Shown in pieces: positions 5,630 to 20,629 of a stretch of 29,470 nucleotides of DNA. Below the pieces are notes generated by a model. It had not been told where the DNA came from, did no database searches, and saw only the letters and a program-made list of their open reading frames with translations. Both the position numbers and the translations under genes were made by a program. Position 1 is the stretch's first letter. Every line of letters starts with the position of its first letter. Origin of the DNA: a virus. The stretch covers positions 1 to 29,470 of IMG/VR virus record IMGVR_UViG_3300028800_000260; one strand, 5' to 3'.

Positions 5630-7291
5630 ATGAGCAAAATACTCGACTATAACGGGAACCCAATCCCCGTAAGGGGGAAGCTGCGCGCCGACTCCGGAGG
5701 CCCTTCATCTGCCCTACCCGGAAACGTGCCCTATCTGTTCCCCTATGATGCGGCCAATTGGACCACTCAGGAGATGGGCGACTGGCTGCCTTGGATTCGG
5801 AGCCCGGATTCTGAAATTAACCTTTTTCGGGATCGAATGGTTGGAAGGTCCCGCGATCTCGTCAGAAACGACGGATGGGCATCAGGCGGCATTTCCCGGA
5901 TTCTCGACAGCACAATCGGCACAAATCTGCGTTTATCGGCCAATCCCGACTATCGGGCTCTCGCAGTTCGATCAGGAAAAAAGGCCTTTGACGCCACATG
6001 GGCGAATGAATTCAGGCAGGCCGTAGAGGCTCTTTGGCGTGGTTTTTCACAGAATATAGGCCACTATAACGACGTTTCGCGGCAGCTTACCATAGGGCAG
6101 CAATTCCGACTCGCTCTGCGTCACAAGCTGATTGATGGGGAGTCTCTCGGCCTCATGTACTGGCTGCCTGAGCGCATAGGCTATGGCGCAGCGGATTATG
6201 CGACGGCGCTTCTTCTGATCGACCCTGACCGCCTGAGCAATCCTTATCAGATGATTGATTCGAAATACATGCGCGGTGGCGTGGAACTTTCGGAACATGG
6301 TGTCCCTATTGCCTACCACATCCGAAAAGCCGAGCAGAATGACTGGTATCTCGCCGTCGAAGCCAACACCTGGGAGCGAGTAATCGCCGAAGATGAGGAC
6401 GGATGGCAACGAATCATCCACGATTTTGACCATGACCGTGCCGGCCAGCATCGAGGCGTAGGCGCATTCACGCCTGTTCTTTCCCATGCTAAAATGCTCG
6501 CCCGATACTATGGCGTTACCCTTCAGGCGGCGACCATCCAGGCCATATTTGGGACTTATGTCAAAAGCCCTTATGATCCTGCCCTCGTGCAAGACGCTAT
6601 CGCAGGGGATCCTGACGCCGAGCTTCCCATGTATCAGGAGCTACGGTCCCAATGGGCAAAAGAACGCCCGGCCATGTTGAACGGCGCCAGAGTGCCGACC
6701 CTTGCCCCTGGAGAAGACATTGTTTCTGTCTCCGCCGAGCATCCGAGCGGCAATTTCAAGGATTTCGCCCACGAGATGGTAGGAATAGAGGCGGCGACTC
6801 TCGGCATGAGTAAGGAGCAGATGACGCAGGACTGGAGCGAGACGAATTACTCGAGCGCCCGTGCCGCCGCTCTTGAGACCTGGAAGACCCTTACCCGCCG
6901 AAACGGGGATTTTAAAACAAACACGGCAACTCCCGTCTATGCGGGTTGGTTGCAAGAGTCTTTTGAAAATGGCGAGCTTCCGCTTCCCACCGGTGCCCCT
7001 GACTTTATCGAGGCCAAAACGGCTTATTCTCAATGTTTATGGCTCGGAGTGCCGCGCGGCTGGGTAGATGAAACGAAGGAAGCTGCCGGCGCCGTGATGA
7101 GAATGGACGCAGGGCTGTCGACACTCAAGGATGAGGCCAGGATACAGGGCCTCGACTGGGAAGAAGTCGTCCATCAGCGGGCGATCGAAGTGAATCTGTT
7201 TAAAGAGCTGGGCCTTAAGCCTCCAGAATGGGCAGGAGAAGTGGCAGCGGCCGAGGCATCAAGACCGCAAGAGTCACCGCGGGCGAGATAA
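5630..7291 (+). CDS. Portal protein, lambda family (gpB-like)
   Basis: The portal forms the dodecameric ring at one vertex through which DNA enters and leaves. This 553-residue protein shows lambda-family signatures. Near the N-terminus a motif reads RDRMVGRSRDLVRNDGWASGGI, followed by a helix-rich core. Later come DPDRLSNPYQM, the HDFDHDRAGQHRGVGAF segment and GEDIVSVSAEHPSGNFKDF, followed by LGMSKEQMTQDWSETNYSSARAA. The length and order agree with the family. A GAGG Shine-Dalgarno site precedes the ATG. The stop codon overlaps the next start (TAATG). The C-terminal extension is Ala/Glu/Arg-rich, as in relatives. Confidence 0.95.
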   Translation: MSKILDYNGNPIPVRGKLRADSGGPSSALPGNVPYLFPYDAANWTTQEMGDWLPWIRSPDSEINLFRDRMVGRSRDLVRNDGWASGGISRILDSTIGTNLRLSANPDYRALAVRSGKKAFDATWANEFRQAVEALWRGFSQNIGHYNDVSRQLTIGQQFRLALRHKLIDGESLGLMYWLPERIGYGAADYATALLLIDPDRLSNPYQMIDSKYMRGGVELSEHGVPIAYHIRKAEQNDWYLAVEANTWERVIAEDEDGWQRIIHDFDHDRAGQHRGVGAFTPVLSHAKMLARYYGVTLQAATIQAIFGTYVKSPYDPALVQDAIAGDPDAELPMYQELRSQWAKERPAMLNGARVPTLAPGEDIVSVSAEHPSGNFKDFAHEMVGIEAATLGMSKEQMTQDWSETNYSSARAAALETWKTLTRRNGDFKTNTATPVYAGWLQESFENGELPLPTGAPDFIEAKTAYSQCLWLGVPRGWVDETKEAAGAVMRMDAGLSTLKDEARIQGLDWEEVVHQRAIEVNLFKELGLKPPEWAGEVAAAEASRPQESPRAR

Positions 7292-10968: not shown

Positions 10969-12012
10969 ATGCCTGATATCCTTGATATTTTCCACAGCGA
11001 TCCCTTTACCGCGATCGCGCTTACCGATGCCGTACAGCGCAACCCGTACCAGCCCATAGGGCTCGGCGACCTCAATCTTTTTGACCCCAACCCGATCAGA
11101 ACCAAAGCCCTCGCCGTCGAAGAGCGCCAGGGTAAGCTCGCCCTGATTCCGTTTTCGGCACGAGGCTCCGAAGGCACCCAGAGAACGACCGAAAAGCGAA
11201 AAATGAGATATTTCGAAGTTCCCCGGCTCATGCATGACGACACGGTCTACGCCGAGGAGCTTCAGAGCGTGAGGGAGTTCGGCACGGAGTCTATCCTCAT
11301 GCAGATCGAGACGGAAGTGGCCCGGCGTCTTTCCGGTCCTACCGGCCTCCTCTCATCCGTGGAATTCACGAAAGAGTATTTGAGGCTCGCGGCCGTTCAA
11401 GGTCTGTGCTGTGACCCACGGGATGGCTCAATCCTCTATAACTGGTTTGACGAGTTCGAGATCACCCAGGCGACGGAGGTTGCATTCAATCTCTCCGCCG
11501 GTACCGCAAACTCTCTGAGGCCGATCATTAATGGCATCGTCAGAACCATGGCAAGGAAGGCCCAGGGTGCATTCGTCCCAACCACGAGGGTCTTTGCTCT
11601 CTGCGGCGACACCTTCTATGATTACCTCGTCAATCACCCCGACGTAATCCGGACCTTTATCAACTGGTCCGAAGCTCGCGACATCAGGGACGGAAGCCAG
11701 GGCGCGGCGTTTTCCGCCTTCGACTTCGCCGGTGTGTCCTGGCTCAACTACCGGGGCAGCGATGACAATTCCACCATCAAGATTGCCGATGACAAGGTGA
11801 AGTTCTTCCCTGTCGGCGCTCCCGGTGTCTTCCGTGAAGCCATGGCCCCGGGCGAGACCGTGGATTGGGTCAACACTCCCGGTAAACCGGTCTATGTTCT
11901 TCCGATCTTCGACCAGCAGCGCCGGATGTGGTGGAAAATGGAAGTCTACGCCTATCCCTTGTTCATCTGCACACGGCCCGAAGTGCTTCTTTCGGGCAGG
12001 GCGGGGACGTAA
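10969..12012 (+). CDS. Major capsid protein, lambda gpE family
   Basis: This 347-residue protein forms the icosahedral shell, with the HK97 fold. It matches lambda gpE (341 residues) in length and in the family pattern: MPDILDIFHSDPFTAIALTDAVQRNPYQP at the start, RGSEG in the loop before the RYFEVPRL strand, then EYLRLAAVQG, and near the end FDQQRRMWWKMEVYAYPLFICTRPEVLL, which is typical for the C-terminus. An AAGGAG site lies about 9 nt before the ATG. It is directly downstream of the decoration gene and upstream of the gpFII-like joiner, as in lambda. No sign of truncation. Confidence 0.96.
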   Translation: MPDILDIFHSDPFTAIALTDAVQRNPYQPIGLGDLNLFDPNPIRTKALAVEERQGKLALIPFSARGSEGTQRTTEKRKMRYFEVPRLMHDDTVYAEELQSVREFGTESILMQIETEVARRLSGPTGLLSSVEFTKEYLRLAAVQGLCCDPRDGSILYNWFDEFEITQATEVAFNLSAGTANSLRPIINGIVRTMARKAQGAFVPTTRVFALCGDTFYDYLVNHPDVIRTFINWSEARDIRDGSQGAAFSAFDFAGVSWLNYRGSDDNSTIKIADDKVKFFPVGAPGVFREAMAPGETVDWVNTPGKPVYVLPIFDQQRRMWWKMEVYAYPLFICTRPEVLLSGRAGT

Positions 12013-15582: not shown

Positions 15583-17569
15583 GAAAAATGTCTTCACCAT
15601 TACGATTTCCGCTACAGACAAGGCGACAGCGACCGTCAAAAAGGTCAATGAGTCCATCAGCAAATTTGTTCGTCCCGTCACTGAGGTTAAGCGAGCGACG
15701 AGCGCCCTCGGAAAAGAGATGGGCCTCGGCAAGATCGGAAAAGGGTTCAAAGACGTTGCCGTGGCCGCAACCGATGCGGCGAGAGAAGCGTCAAAAATCG
15801 TTGCTCCTCTCGCCGCCATAGTCGGGGTCGGAAGCATCATCGGTATTGTAAAACTCTCGAAAACATGGGGGGATCTCGGCTCGGAAATTAGTCGAACCAG
15901 TCAGATCATAGGCATCTCTACTCATGATCTCCAGGCCTTCCGGGGGGCGGCTCGCCTCGCCGGCCTTTCTTCCGATTCAATGACAGCTGGGCTCAAGACT
16001 TTGGGCGGTACGATGCAAGACGCCCTCGTGGGTCGTAACAACGATGCCCTGTATGTAATGAGACGGCTCGGAATACAGATGAAATATACGGCAAACGGTG
16101 CCATAGATACCGGGGCTGCACTTCTTGATTTGTCAGAAATCATGCAGACATCGAACATGAGCGTCCAGTCTAAAAGATCGCTTGCCCAGGTATTCGGCCT
16201 CGAAGAGATGCTTCCTTTGCTCATGAAGGGGCCTGAAGCTATTAAGGCCTATCTTGACCAAATGGAGCGCTCAAACACGATTATGGGAGGCGATGCCCTG
16301 AAATCGGCTGATACCTACCGGGAATCCATGGAAAAACTCATGATGGGCCTAAAGAACTTCGGCTACACGATCGGAAACGTTCTCATCCCAGTTTTGCAGC
16401 CCCTCGTGGATAAGATTACTACATGGGTGACCGCCAACAAACAATTGATCGCCACAAAACTTGCTGACGTTGCTCGAGACATTGCCGGCGCTCTAAAAGA
16501 GATAGATTGGATGGCGGCAATTGATGGTATCAGTGACTTTGTCAAGGGCGTCGTAAAGGCTGTGGACTGGGTCGGCGGGTGGAAAGTAGCGCTTGCGGGC
16601 CTGGCCTTCGTGATTGCAACCCCGCTTTTGTCCGCAATTGCGAATCTAACGACGGCTCTCATCGCTCTTGGCGGGGTAATGATTGCTAACCCCGTAGGAG
16701 CCATCATCACGGGAATAACCCTTGGCGTTTTGGGCCTTGCTTTTGTTGGTTATGAACTCGTCACGCATTGGGAAGAGGTTAAGAACCAGTGGGGCGATAT
16801 CTGGAAAAGCATGGCCGAGGGCGTCAATGGCCTGATTGAGTCATTGAACCGAGTTCCTTTTGTCAACATTCCTAAAATCGACACCCGTCACGGCGCAAGC
16901 GGAAGCTGGGACAATCCCTCAGGGGGAAATTTCGGAGGTAAGGGCGCAAGCGGAAGCTGGGGCGGTCCTGCATCGCTTTCTTCCGTCGCTTCCCCTGATC
17001 TTCTCGGTCTGGTGAAAAACCTTGAAGGCAGCGGCGATAATGCCATTTCCAAGGCGGGCGCCATTGGCACATACCAGATCATGCCGGATACAGCCCGGCA
17101 GTTTGGTTTTGACCCTACGAAACTGAACGATCCTATTTACAGCGAGAAAGTTGCTCGGACTATACTGGGTGATTTGTCCAAAAAATATCCCGGGGACCTC
17201 GATGCTATTCTGACAGGGTACAACGCCGGTCCAGGCAGGGCAGATACATTTTTAAGGTCTGGCCGCAACGCCGCCCTGCTTCCCAAAGAGACACAGGGCT
17301 ATCTCGCCCGCGCTCGCGCCCTCATTTCCGGCACGGGTCCGGCAGTGGCCACGCCCTATTCACCGGTACCGGGGGCTTTCCCCAATATTGCAAGGAACGG
17401 AAGCGCAGGAGCAGCCGGCGCACCCTATGCCCAGGGGTCAGGCGCGATCATCGTGACAGTCAATTTTGAGAACGCGCCCCGCGGTATGAAAACCACTACT
17501 CAAACAAAGGGTAACGTCATCGCCAATACCAAGATCGGTTTTGCCATGCCTGAATTCGGTGCATTATGA
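15572..17569 (+). CDS. Tail tape measure protein with SLT lytic transglycosylase domain
   Basis: The tape measure sets tail length and is ejected with the DNA. The 665-residue protein starts with a polar helix (residues 1-75), has Ala/Gly/Val-rich hydrophobic helices at about 78-98 and 340-395 that could insert into membranes, and a Gly/Ser linker (430-470). Its C-terminal part (475-585) is a Slt70-like lysozyme domain: LVKNLEGSGDNAISKAGAIG, with E485 as the likely catalytic acid, then YQIMPDTARQFG and LTGYNAGPGRAD. Such a domain helps cross the peptidoglycan on entry. The ATG lies inside the chaperone's -1 extension, and the stop overlaps the gp43-type gene by 4 nt. Confidence 0.93.
   Translation: MADKKNVFTITISATDKATATVKKVNESISKFVRPVTEVKRATSALGKEMGLGKIGKGFKDVAVAATDAAREASKIVAPLAAIVGVGSIIGIVKLSKTWGDLGSEISRTSQIIGISTHDLQAFRGAARLAGLSSDSMTAGLKTLGGTMQDALVGRNNDALYVMRRLGIQMKYTANGAIDTGAALLDLSEIMQTSNMSVQSKRSLAQVFGLEEMLPLLMKGPEAIKAYLDQMERSNTIMGGDALKSADTYRESMEKLMMGLKNFGYTIGNVLIPVLQPLVDKITTWVTANKQLIATKLADVARDIAGALKEIDWMAAIDGISDFVKGVVKAVDWVGGWKVALAGLAFVIATPLLSAIANLTTALIALGGVMIANPVGAIITGITLGVLGLAFVGYELVTHWEEVKNQWGDIWKSMAEGVNGLIESLNRVPFVNIPKIDTRHGASGSWDNPSGGNFGGKGASGSWGGPASLSSVASPDLLGLVKNLEGSGDNAISKAGAIGTYQIMPDTARQFGFDPTKLNDPIYSEKVARTILGDLSKKYPGDLDAILTGYNAGPGRADTFLRSGRNAALLPKETQGYLARARALISGTGPAVATPYSPVPGAFPNIARNGSAGAAGAPYAQGSGAIIVTVNFENAPRGMKTTTQTKGNVIANTKIGFAMPEFGAL
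16892..16961 (+). repeat. Exact 19-bp direct repeat in the tape measure linker
   Basis: GGCGCAAGCGGAAGCTGGG occurs at 16892-16910 and at 16943-16961. It encodes GASGSW twice, residues 441-446 and 458-463 of the tape measure. The copies are 51 nt apart, a multiple of three, so loss or gain of one unit would keep the frame. It sits in the flexible Gly/Ser linker before the transglycosylase domain. Confidence 0.9.
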
Positions 17570-18936
17570 GTTTCTTTGCGAGCCTCAGACGAGCCTCTTT
17601 TGGAGGTGTTCCTTTCGGCGTCCTGGCGGGAGACGGACACTTTGGGCGGCGCCAGGCGGTTCATGAATACCCATTCCGTGATACTCCATGGGTCGAGGAT
17701 CTCGGCAGGTCTGCCCGGCGAATCAACGTGATAGGCTTTATCGTCGAGGACGACAAGATTAGCGGCGGCGCCGATGTCATTATTCAGAGAGACCGCCTCT
17801 TAGAAGTAGCCGAGTCCTCTGCCCAGGCGACGCTCGTTCACCCGACCTATGGAACCATGCAGGTAGCACTGCTCGAGATATCCGTTTCTGAAAAGTGGGA
17901 CGAGGGGTGTTATTTTGAAATCGCCTTTAGCTTTATCCAGGCCGGGGAAAGGACCATGCCAAGCATCATCGTGGCCACAACCGCGATGGTCAAGAAAAAG
18001 GCTTCTTCCGCCTATTCCGCCTCGATATTCGATTACGCCCTTGCGGCCGTCCGGCTCGTGCACCTATCCTCATCGCTCATCAAGACGGCCATATACACGG
18101 TCAAGACGTGGACGAAAATAGTAAAGAACGTCGTGAACGACGCGACGAGTCTTATCGGTATGGTCTCAGAACTTGCCGGTACCCAGACCGATTATGGCCG
18201 CTATGCCGGAGGGGGTACAACCGGTTTTACGGGCTCGGCGAAAACCCTGGCGACAAAGACCACAAGCGAACTCATCGCCGCCGGCTCAGCGTCGAGGTCT
18301 GCCGTTGAGATCGCAGCGGCAAAGCTCGCCACGCTCGCCGCGTCAGGAATGGGAGCAGACCCCGTCATGGCCAAAAAGGCTGCGGCCGATATTGGGGAAG
18401 CCGCACAAGGGTTGACCGATGCGATACTCTCAGCCATGGCCGATCCGGCGGATGCTGTGCGCCTGTTTCCGACGCTTGCAGATTTCATCCCGGCGACCTA
18501 CTATCCGCCATCGGTTATCGGCAACGCGAGAAAAGCCTTCGAAACAGCAATGGCCAATCTCTTTCGGCGCTGTGCGGTGATTGCTCTGGCAAAAGCATCC
18601 GCATCCTATCAGCCGTCCTCATCCGATGACGCGGTGGCCGTTCGAAGAAGCGTGGTCGCTCTCCTCGACCGTGAAATTGTCGTCGCCGGTGACAATGGGG
18701 ACGACTCGACATTCAATGCTTTCCGTGAGCTGAGGCAGGCGGTAGTCATTGATCTTAACACGAGAGGGGCCGCGCTTCCCGCCCTCAAGACGGTCACCTT
18801 CCAGGCATCTCTGCCGGCGGCGGTCGTATCGCTGAGGCTCTATCGAGATGCAGGCAGGGCGGACGAAATATCCCGGGAGACGGGCGCTCCTCATCCCGCA
18901 TTTCAGACCCTTTCAATGAAAGTCCTGGCATCGTAA
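17566..18936 (+). CDS. DNA circularisation/gp43-type tail protein (Mu gpN-like)
   Basis: The N-terminal 100 residues match the DNA_circ_N pattern of Mu gp43: FASLRRASFGGVPFGVLAGDGHFGRRQAVHEYPFRDTPWVEDLGRSARRINVIGFIVEDD. In Mu-like phages the protein is a baseplate component, despite its historical name. The middle (residues 150-350) is Ala-rich and helical, and the C-terminus ends in a helical and beta region. The 456-residue length is in the expected range. It overlaps the tape measure by 4 nt (ATGA). The gene is followed after 12 nt by the ferritin-like gene, whereas in Mu the hub gene follows directly. Confidence 0.9.
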   Translation: MSFFASLRRASFGGVPFGVLAGDGHFGRRQAVHEYPFRDTPWVEDLGRSARRINVIGFIVEDDKISGGADVIIQRDRLLEVAESSAQATLVHPTYGTMQVALLEISVSEKWDEGCYFEIAFSFIQAGERTMPSIIVATTAMVKKKASSAYSASIFDYALAAVRLVHLSSSLIKTAIYTVKTWTKIVKNVVNDATSLIGMVSELAGTQTDYGRYAGGGTTGFTGSAKTLATKTTSELIAAGSASRSAVEIAAAKLATLAASGMGADPVMAKKAAADIGEAAQGLTDAILSAMADPADAVRLFPTLADFIPATYYPPSVIGNARKAFETAMANLFRRCAVIALAKASASYQPSSSDDAVAVRRSVVALLDREIVVAGDNGDDSTFNAFRELRQAVVIDLNTRGAALPALKTVTFQASLPAAVVSLRLYRDAGRADEISRETGAPHPAFQTLSMKVLAS

Positions 18937-18948
18937 GGAGACACCTAA

Positions 18949-19248
18949 ATGCCTCAATTTGCCAATATAGAATCAGTTTTTGGAACCTCGATGAAGAAAA
19001 GTATGTCGAAAGAGGAGACGGTCAGGGCTTTACGCCTTGCCATCGCTGCCGAGCTTGAGACAGCGTCTCTCTATGAGCAGATCGCGGAAGGAACGGCTGA
19101 TGCTTCGGTCAGAGAAATCATGTACGACATTGCCAGGGAAGAGCAGGTCCACGTCGGCGAGCTCCTCCACATGATCGAGAAGGTCAACAAACGGGAGAAA
19201 GACGCCTACGAAGAAGGCGAAGACGAGGCGGCCGAGAAAGTGGGGTAG
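18949..19248 (+). CDS. Ferritin-like di-iron protein, encapsulin-associated (EncFtn/Flp) type
   Basis: This 99-residue protein shows a short two-helix ferritin-like domain at residues 20-80. The first helix has AAELETASLYEQIAE with E35, E37 and Y42. The second has AREEQVHVGELLHMIEK with E64, E65 and H68 (ExxH). I recall nearly the same arrangement in the ferritin-like domain at the N-terminus of the Pyrococcus furiosus encapsulin and in EncFtn (ELEAVDWY, DEEKEH); this was not searched. Such proteins assemble as dimers or larger rings, bind iron between protomers and oxidise Fe(II). The C-terminal tail is acidic (YEEGEDEAAEKVG). An AAGGAG site lies 8 nt before the ATG and the gene is 12 nt after gp43, so it is co-expressed with baseplate genes. 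A rubrerythrin-type protein is the alternative; it lacks the rubredoxin cysteines. Confidence 0.85.
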   Translation: MPQFANIESVFGTSMKKSMSKEETVRALRLAIAAELETASLYEQIAEGTADASVREIMYDIAREEQVHVGELLHMIEKVNKREKDAYEEGEDEAAEKVG

Positions 19249-19260
19249 CCCCTTCTATTG

Positions 19261-19488
19261 TTATCGTTCTGTGTTCTTGCGCGGCATCTTTTTATTGATA
19301 ATTTCACTGTCTATTATGCTTGTCTTGGAAAATACCTCAAGACATCCTTGAAAGGCTCCCGCCCAGACCAAGACGCTAATCAGGGCAATGCACCAGCCGG
19401 ACATCGTCGGAATAAAGATTATCAAAGCAAGGCAAACCAAAACGGGCGGGATCATAGCTACCAACAATGCTTTGTCACTTCGTTTCAC
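19261..19488 (-). CDS. Small two-helix membrane protein on the minus strand
   Basis: This 75-residue protein starts at GTG 19488, seven nt after GGAGG on the minus strand; an in-frame ATG at 19521 would sit inside the gp44-type gene and has no such site. Two hydrophobic segments (about residues 7-25 and 28-46 of the short form: ALLVAMIPPVLVCLALIIFI and SGWCIALISVLVWAGAF) are followed by a polar, basic C-terminus (KKMPRKNTER). It is an inner-membrane protein by inference. It converges on the ferritin-like gene and opposes the late operon. A hand count of 19261-19320 gives 35% GC, far below its neighbours, which fits a foreign insertion. No family recognised. Confidence 0.65.
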   Translation of the reverse strand: MKRSDKALLVAMIPPVLVCLALIIFIPTMSGWCIALISVLVWAGAFQGCLEVFSKTSIIDSEIINKKMPRKNTER

Positions 19489-19513
19489 GACTCTACCTCC
19501 AAGGTGAATTTTA

Positions 19514-20629
19514 ATGCCCACTGATGGTGATATTACTCTCTTTGTCGGGGGTCAGTCAATCTCAGGATGGCAAAGCGTCCGCATAACTCGTGGAATCGAG
19601 CGCTGTCCGAATGACTTTGACATATCCTTTACGGAGCTTTTCCCCGGTGATGGGAGCACTGTTGTCGTCAAGCCCGGCGACTTCTGCAAGGTCTTCATCG
19701 GGTCTGATCTTGTCATTACCGGCTATGTCGACCGGCTTAATCCGAGCATCGACCCTCAATCCCATACGGTAAGAATCACGGGCCGCGGTAAGTGCCAGGA
19801 CCTTGTTGATTGCGCGGCTGAGTGGCCGGGCGGGCAGATAAGCGGCTCTTCCATTCTTCAGATTGCTCAAAAATTGGCCGAGCCTTATGGGAAGGACGAT
19901 AAGGGCGTTCCCATCAGCGAAGATTCGCTCATTACCGTCACGGCGGTAGACTCCACAGTGGGTCCCCCGATACCTCAATTTAACCTGATTTATGGGGAGA
20001 CGGCCTACGAGATCATCGAACGAGTATGCCGCTACCGGGGCCTTCTCGCCTACGAACTGCCCGACGGAAATCTCTTTCTCGGCCGGGTGAGTGATATGAC
20101 GGCGGCGAGCGGCTTCACTCAAGGGGATAACATCCAGGCCGCGAACATAGAATATGCTATGGATCAGCGGTTTTCTATGTATCAGGCTCGTCTTTTGTCC
20201 ATGGAGTTGTGGGGCGATATCCCGGGCCCAGGCGGTTCCTATAAAGACACGCAGTATGATTTTCCAGACCCTTCCGTGCTTCGGCGTCGCCTCAAAATTC
20301 TCATCGCCGAAACTGCCGATGTGGGAATGGAAATTTGCAAACTACGGGCTCGGTGGGAAGCATCCCGCCGTGCGGGGAGATCGAGTACCCTTTCTCTTGT
20401 CGTAGATAGTTGGCGCGACAAGGGAGGCACTCTATGGACCCCTAATACCCTTGTCCCCCTTGACGTCGCCACTTGTAAAATACCGCAGGGGACGATGTGG
20501 ACCATCGGGGCCGTCACCTACCGGCGGGATGAGAACGGCACGACAGCCGAACTTACGATCATGCCTCCTGGCGCCTTTTTACCTGAACCGCCTCAACCGA
20601 TGCCGGCATTCTGGGATTATCATAGATGA
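19514..20629 (+). CDS. Baseplate hub protein (Mu gp44/gpP-like)
   Basis: The hub carries the central spike and links tube to baseplate. The 371-residue protein reads LFVGGQSISGWQSVRITRGIERCPNDFDISFTE at the start, then VKPGDFCKVFIGSDLVITGYVDRLNPSIDPQSHTVRITGRGKCQDLVDCAAEWPG, a pattern typical of Mu gp44 and gpD-type late control proteins. The C-terminal part WTPNTLVPLDVATCKIPQGTMWTIGAVTYRRDENGTTAELTIMPP is likewise family-like. The ATG at 19514 follows an AAGGTG site. The stop overlaps the spike start by 4 nt (ATGA), so hub and spike are translationally coupled. Confidence 0.93.
   Translation: MPTDGDITLFVGGQSISGWQSVRITRGIERCPNDFDISFTELFPGDGSTVVVKPGDFCKVFIGSDLVITGYVDRLNPSIDPQSHTVRITGRGKCQDLVDCAAEWPGGQISGSSILQIAQKLAEPYGKDDKGVPISEDSLITVTAVDSTVGPPIPQFNLIYGETAYEIIERVCRYRGLLAYELPDGNLFLGRVSDMTAASGFTQGDNIQAANIEYAMDQRFSMYQARLLSMELWGDIPGPGGSYKDTQYDFPDPSVLRRRLKILIAETADVGMEICKLRARWEASRRAGRSSTLSLVVDSWRDKGGTLWTPNTLVPLDVATCKIPQGTMWTIGAVTYRRDENGTTAELTIMPPGAFLPEPPQPMPAFWDYHR
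19530..19559 (-). promoter_or_regulatory. Promoter-like sequence for the minus-strand membrane protein
   Basis: On the minus strand TTGACT (complement of 19554-19559) is followed after an 18-nt spacer by TAATAT (complement of 19530-19535), 42 nt upstream of the GTG start at 19488. It lies inside the first codons of the hub gene. Matches are 5/6 and 4/6 to consensus. It is compatible with moron-type expression in a lysogen. Confidence 0.4.

Follow-up and report, generated by a model that had tools for sequence, protein, structure and literature searches.

An EncFtn-type ferritin-like gene in a phage tail operon, and EncFtn fusions to head proteins of other phages

Results

An EncFtn-type gene among the tail genes of a phage

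The window, that is the whole stretch of DNA analysed here, covers a complete IMG/VR virus record, 29,470 bases long. The phage that it represents combines a lambda-type head (gpA terminase, lambda portal, S49 protease, head decoration protein D and capsid protein E) with a contractile tail of the Mu type. The features referred to below are as follows.

5630..7291, + strand: lambda-family portal protein without a ferritin domain (PF05136, 1.2e-90)
10969..12012, + strand: major capsid protein E (Phage_cap_E, HK97 fold family; PF03864, 1.1e-75), not an encapsulin shell
17566..18936, + strand: gp43/N-like DNA-circularisation/tail protein, the upstream neighbour (PF07157, 3.7e-27; phrog_184, 1.2e-72)
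18937..18941 (approximate), + strand: ribosome-binding site AAGGAG/AGGAG, right behind the gp43 stop and 8 nt ahead of the ferritin ATG
18949..19248, + strand: EncFtn-type ferritin-like protein of 99 aa, ATG start, with ferroxidase residues E35, Y42, E65 and H68
19261..~19489, - strand: small hydrophobic membrane protein of ~75 aa, GTG preceded by a GGAGGTAG site, start codon chosen by eye
19514..20629, + strand: gp44/gpP-like baseplate hub, the downstream neighbour (PF21683, PF22255, PF21929; phrog_177, 9.4e-106)

The ferritin ATG lies 12 nt past the gp43 stop at 18936, on the same strand as the operon, and the GC3 of the gene (0.64) falls within the range of the other structural genes of this phage (0.57-0.71). 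The original prediction had placed the gene between gp43-like and hub-like genes, on the right strand and behind a strong ribosome-binding site, all of which stands; it had overlooked the reverse-strand ORF 19261-19489, which sits between the ferritin gene and gp44 with a ribosome site of its own. A Pfam search of this reverse ORF returned no match, and its opposite strand and low GC3 (0.40) make it moron-like. We rejected the ferritin gene as a part of this reverse moron, since strand and composition differ. Elsewhere in the window, a 288-aa ORF on the opposite strand (909-1775) has a signal-peptide-like start, low GC and no Pfam match; a reverse ORF of similar appearance occupies the gp43-gp44 gap of another locus (L035).

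Family, fold and active site

The 99-residue protein was originally proposed to be an encapsulin-type ferritin-like protein, and profile, structure and active-site comparisons all bear this out. It matches the NCBIfam model EncB_fam (NF058679) over residues 1-97 with an E-value of 6.7e-21, TIGR04535 with 5.4e-14, Pfam Rubrerythrin with 4.8e-6 (cut-off passed) and EncFtn-like PF22277 with 6.2e-5 (slightly under the cut-off). Because the curated cut-offs are missed (74.5 of 90 bits for NF058679, 52.1 of 125 for TIGR04535 and 23.2 of 27 for PF22277), we file the protein as an EncFtn homologue and not as a member of EncB or TIGR04535. The best sequence match in PDB is the Pyrococcus furiosus EncFtn (5n5e, 2.8e-14), and EncB is matched with 1.9e-7. 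The profile of phrog_7573, a family of unknown function, matches residues 35-96 and the EncFtn part of two proteins from other phages (L151 and L165, see below); on these matches, it is probably an unrecognised EncFtn-like family.

An AlphaFold monomer model, built from an alignment with 26 viral relatives, has a pLDDT of 90.3 and shows two long helices followed by a C-terminal helix. Foldseek returned 5n5e as the top matches (TMq 0.79 with an rmsd of 1.6 A, and 0.77 with 1.0 A), followed by Myxococcus xanthus EncB, EncC and Rhodospirillum rubrum EncFtn. Model and matches together identify the two-helix half-ferritin fold.

Residues E35, Y42, E64, E65 and H68 are invariant across the 26 aligned viral proteins, and the pattern E-x6-Y/W ... 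EE-x2-H is present in 72 of 72 domains. Shifted by three positions, E35, Y42, E65 and H68 correspond to E32, Y39, E62 and H65 of R. rubrum EncFtn. Mutation of this R. rubrum centre lowers or abolishes ferroxidase activity, E62A abolishing it and E32A and H65A reducing it (PMC11202242, PMC5012862). Three of the iron-binding residues first suggested (E35, E65 and H68) are therefore retained from the original set of four; the other, E64, is invariant, but by homology with R. rubrum the fourth ferroxidase residue is Y42. A second metal site, E31/E34 in R. rubrum EncFtn, is not kept; A34 and T37 are found in its place. A tree of 72 rows was based on few columns and put the window protein on a long branch, so that its placement is not resolved by the tree.

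The window ORF 18949-19248 is confirmed as a real gene encoding an EncFtn homologue; its family, fold, active-site residues and place in a late structural operon are direct observations. A ferritin fold that has lost the ferroxidase function, or a chimeric assembly, would fit an arrangement that is present in one contig only, yet the active-site residues are all intact and neither composition nor spacing breaks with the rest of the operon, and we regard this explanation as very improbable.

The P. furiosus encapsulin EncFtn domain (PFC_05175, 5n5e) is the closest known protein by both sequence and structure, with ~40% identity over 80 residues, the same two-helix-plus-tail fold and the same ferroxidase residues. 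Unlike the window protein, which is a free protein in a tail operon where no shell protein was recognised, it is fused to an HK97-fold encapsulin shell. EncB and EncC of M. xanthus and the EncB_fam cargo proteins resemble the window protein in fold and through the near full-length match to NF058679, but the window protein stays under the curated cut-off, lacks a C-terminal targeting peptide and has no encapsulin beside it. Inspection for such a peptide found none: the protein ends in EEGEDEAAEKVG, without a shell fusion. Some short FLPs likewise have no apparent targeting peptide (PMC11202242). The encapsulin shell family Linocin_M18 had no match among the subset of window ORFs that was scanned.

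The gp43-gp44 junction in related phages

With the hub protein as query, we gathered 80 viral loci. An EncFtn gene was found in none of these 80 hub-related loci and in none of 37 whole records. Both genes could be located in 75 loci, and in 62 of these gp43 and gp44 overlap or lie at most 36 nt apart; the larger gaps of the remaining 13 come in some cases from a split gp43 and in others hold extra ORFs on the reverse strand (L002, L035 and L078). The isolated relatives Serratia phage BZS1, Citrobacter phage phiNP and Acetobacter phage phiAP1, whose terminases are 67-74% identical to that of the window phage, have no gene at this junction, and their gp43 and gp44 abut or overlap.

Because the ferritin gene is absent from the hub-related loci and the isolated relatives, we regard it as a local acquisition that is dispensable for the tail, which counts against a function in the baseplate as well as against an ancestral partner here. 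A structural baseplate part that uses iron in tail assembly would agree with the position between gp43- and gp44-like genes; given the empty junctions of the surveyed loci and the three isolates, it is hardly credible. An ancestral tail gene was rejected on the same absence from relatives. The original prediction had called for such a survey of gp43-gp44 neighbours in Mu-like tails. Its idea of a reverse route of encapsulin evolution, with a ferritin partner retained beside phage genes, is not supported for this locus: the capsid protein belongs to Phage_cap_E, the gene was inserted locally and the targeting peptide is missing.

The junction tolerates cargo, as the extra reverse-strand ORFs in L002, L035 and L078 show. 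The gene could accordingly be lysogenic-conversion or metabolic cargo that helps the host to balance iron and oxidative stress or supplies a host encapsulin with cargo, unrelated to virion assembly. The moron-like reverse ORF adjoins the ferritin gene, and the N-terminus of the protein aligns with the bacterial EncB_fam model from residue 1. Unlike the reverse moron, however, the ferritin gene has the strand of the operon, its own ribosome-binding site just past gp43 and a phage-like GC3; as part of the late operon, it would not be expressed in a lysogen, and the C-terminus carries no encapsulin targeting peptide. We consider such a role unlikely.

Searches for EncFtn in other viruses, plasmids and bacteria

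IMG/VR was scanned with alignments in rounds of 2, then 34, then 80 loci, which yielded at least 67 non-redundant viral ORFs with an EncFtn domain. Single-sequence scans with P0001 detected no viral relative, and a Sphingobium match from such a scan was discarded as spurious and antisense. With the window protein as tblastn query, nothing was found in INPHARED or PLSDB; for the INPHARED phages, this agrees with the earlier statement that no phage tail operon with this gene is known. A tblastn search of INPHARED with query P0002 gave Eggerthella phage LE2-3 as its single hit apart from two weak ones (E 0.3). In this isolated phage, a 948-aa ORF with an EncFtn-like stretch lies between the portal and major capsid genes (L085:14380-17226). 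Large ORFs that combine NUDIX, DUF6496 and EncFtn domains were observed in two loci (L154:6189-8237 and L172:6837-9614), and in L154 a major-head-protein match follows ~2.6 kb downstream. Among sampled genomes of Pseudomonadota, 20 of 399 encode EncFtn, of the distant R. rubrum type.

A literature search for EncFtn, ferritin or rubrerythrin in phages found no earlier report within its partial coverage, and we claim no priority. Dps and manganese catalase genes occur in phages (Lactobacillus phages, 'Gratiaviridae') and are believed to aid defence against oxidative stress (PMC6669764, PMC8008677). They are, like the window gene, ferritin-superfamily genes on phages, but the four-helix Dps and the catalase belong to families other than the two-helix EncFtn, and fusions to head proteins are not reported there.

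EncFtn domains linked to phage heads

Four of the viral EncFtn domains are fused to head proteins:

L165, 6501-8216: portal-EncFtn fusion of 571 aa, PF06381 (7.8e-72) followed by EncFtn at residues 495-569
L159, 5980-8637: portal-EncFtn fusion of 885 aa, PF06381 (8.3e-77) followed by EncFtn at residues 502-578
L151, 3472-5223: portal-EncFtn fusion, phrog_146 (1.3e-43), EncFtn at residues 503-582
L147, 5006-6112: EncFtn N-terminal on a DUF2213 head-maturation (prohead) protease

The EncFtn domain is C-terminal on all three portal proteins. A terminase gene directly precedes the fusion ORF of L165 and that of L159 and lies ~380 nt upstream of the one in L151, and head-morphogenesis or maturation-protease genes lie downstream in L165 and L159. 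The phages of L147 and L151 are close relatives (terminases 86%, portals 76% and EncFtn domains 66% identical); the same EncFtn domain is thus attached to the protease in one phage and to the portal in its relative. The L159 ORF additionally carries a topoisomerase IB domain after EncFtn.

Virion genes of the T4 or window type occur within eight ORFs in 23 of 67 EncFtn cases, and the typical T4-type order around a standalone EncFtn gene is gp17-gp13-EncFtn-gp14-gp15-gp3-gp18 homologues. In addition, the N-termini of 12 of the 67 viral EncFtns fit a capsid-targeting-like motif. This motif was present at the N-terminus of 39 of 147 ORFs in eleven EncFtn loci versus 2 of 783 ORFs in the hub loci, counts that are descriptive and not an independent test because the motif was drawn up after the sequences had been seen. 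T4 IPII and IPIII served as an outside check, and their MKTYQEFIAE fits. The first ten residues of T4 IPIII suffice for head loading (PMC9026906). The likeness of phage EncFtns to these T4 internal proteins is confined to the targeting sequence, as the latter are not ferritins, and the window protein does not share it: its N-terminus MPQFANIESVFG fits neither form of the motif. Five T4-like loci (L086, L103, L104, L107 and L113) contain many small ORFs with N-termini such as MKFKEYLNE and MRFKKYLME; from these common T4-targeting-like N-termini, they are probably whole sets of head-packaged proteins.

The portal fusions, the protease fusion and the T4-type neighbourhoods with targeting-like N-termini tie EncFtn domains to the head. 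The fusions to head proteins suggest that iron-oxidising cargo is incorporated by some phages into the particles they make, and EncFtn is likely to be head cargo in the fusion-bearing relatives. The idea of iron oxidation in phage particles, originally raised for virion assembly, thereby gains support in general form; a role in the baseplate is not supported, given the absence of the gene from the 80 hub-related loci.

Discussion

The original interpretation is partly supported. We think that the window gene probably encodes an EncFtn-type diiron ferroxidase subunit that is made late with the tail proteins and likely protects phage DNA from iron chemistry. Characterised EncFtns assemble as a decamer. 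Late expression, assembly state, activity and benefit of the window protein are what we infer: the subunit would be synthesised late, alongside the tail proteins, and two antiparallel helices per subunit would pair across an interface that binds two irons through E35, E65 and H68 of both chains, Y42 lying next to the diiron site. Once assembled, it would oxidise Fe2+ with O2 or peroxide and so clear reactive ferrous iron from the surroundings of progeny DNA, in the late-infected cell, within the particle or in both, leaving less Fenton chemistry. EncFtn without a shell oxidises iron but stores no mineral, for which the shell is needed (PMC11202242); a free cytoplasmic protein would therefore only partly detoxify. 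Where EncFtn is fused to the portal or the protease, gene structure predicts that the capsid itself could be the shell for iron mineral storage.

It is tentatively conceivable that the ferritin is virion cargo in the window phage too, held in the prohead or tail and oxidising iron as EncFtn does in an encapsulin. The portal and protease fusions, all beside terminase and other head genes, the standalone copies among homologues of T4 head and tail genes, and the place of the window gene within a late structural operon all point this way. Against it, the window protein has neither a fusion nor a recognisable loading signal, the head is of a different type (lambda-type MCP, S49 protease), and the gene lies in the tail operon and not among head genes. 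With tag and fusion both absent, entry of this protein into the virion is doubtful. As a broader and speculative model, diverse tailed phages may load EncFtn into HK97-fold heads by portal or protease fusion or by T4-like targeting, the virion working as an iron-oxidising encapsulin; the window gene would be an untagged member, and encapsulin-ferritin systems and ferritin-bearing heads would have exchanged parts in evolution.

The window gene extends the EncFtn family by a new member in a new setting, and the portal and protease fusions are the stronger novelty. Phage capsids are the presumed ancestors of encapsulins, whose known cargo includes ferritin-like iron oxidases. The presence of EncFtn in phages, with four fusions to portal or prohead protease, offers a second, testable case of EncFtn housed in an HK97-fold shell. 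Two questions follow, namely the role of iron chemistry in the virion and the direction in which cargo was transferred, and proteins now labelled unknown, such as phrog_7573, gain a candidate function.
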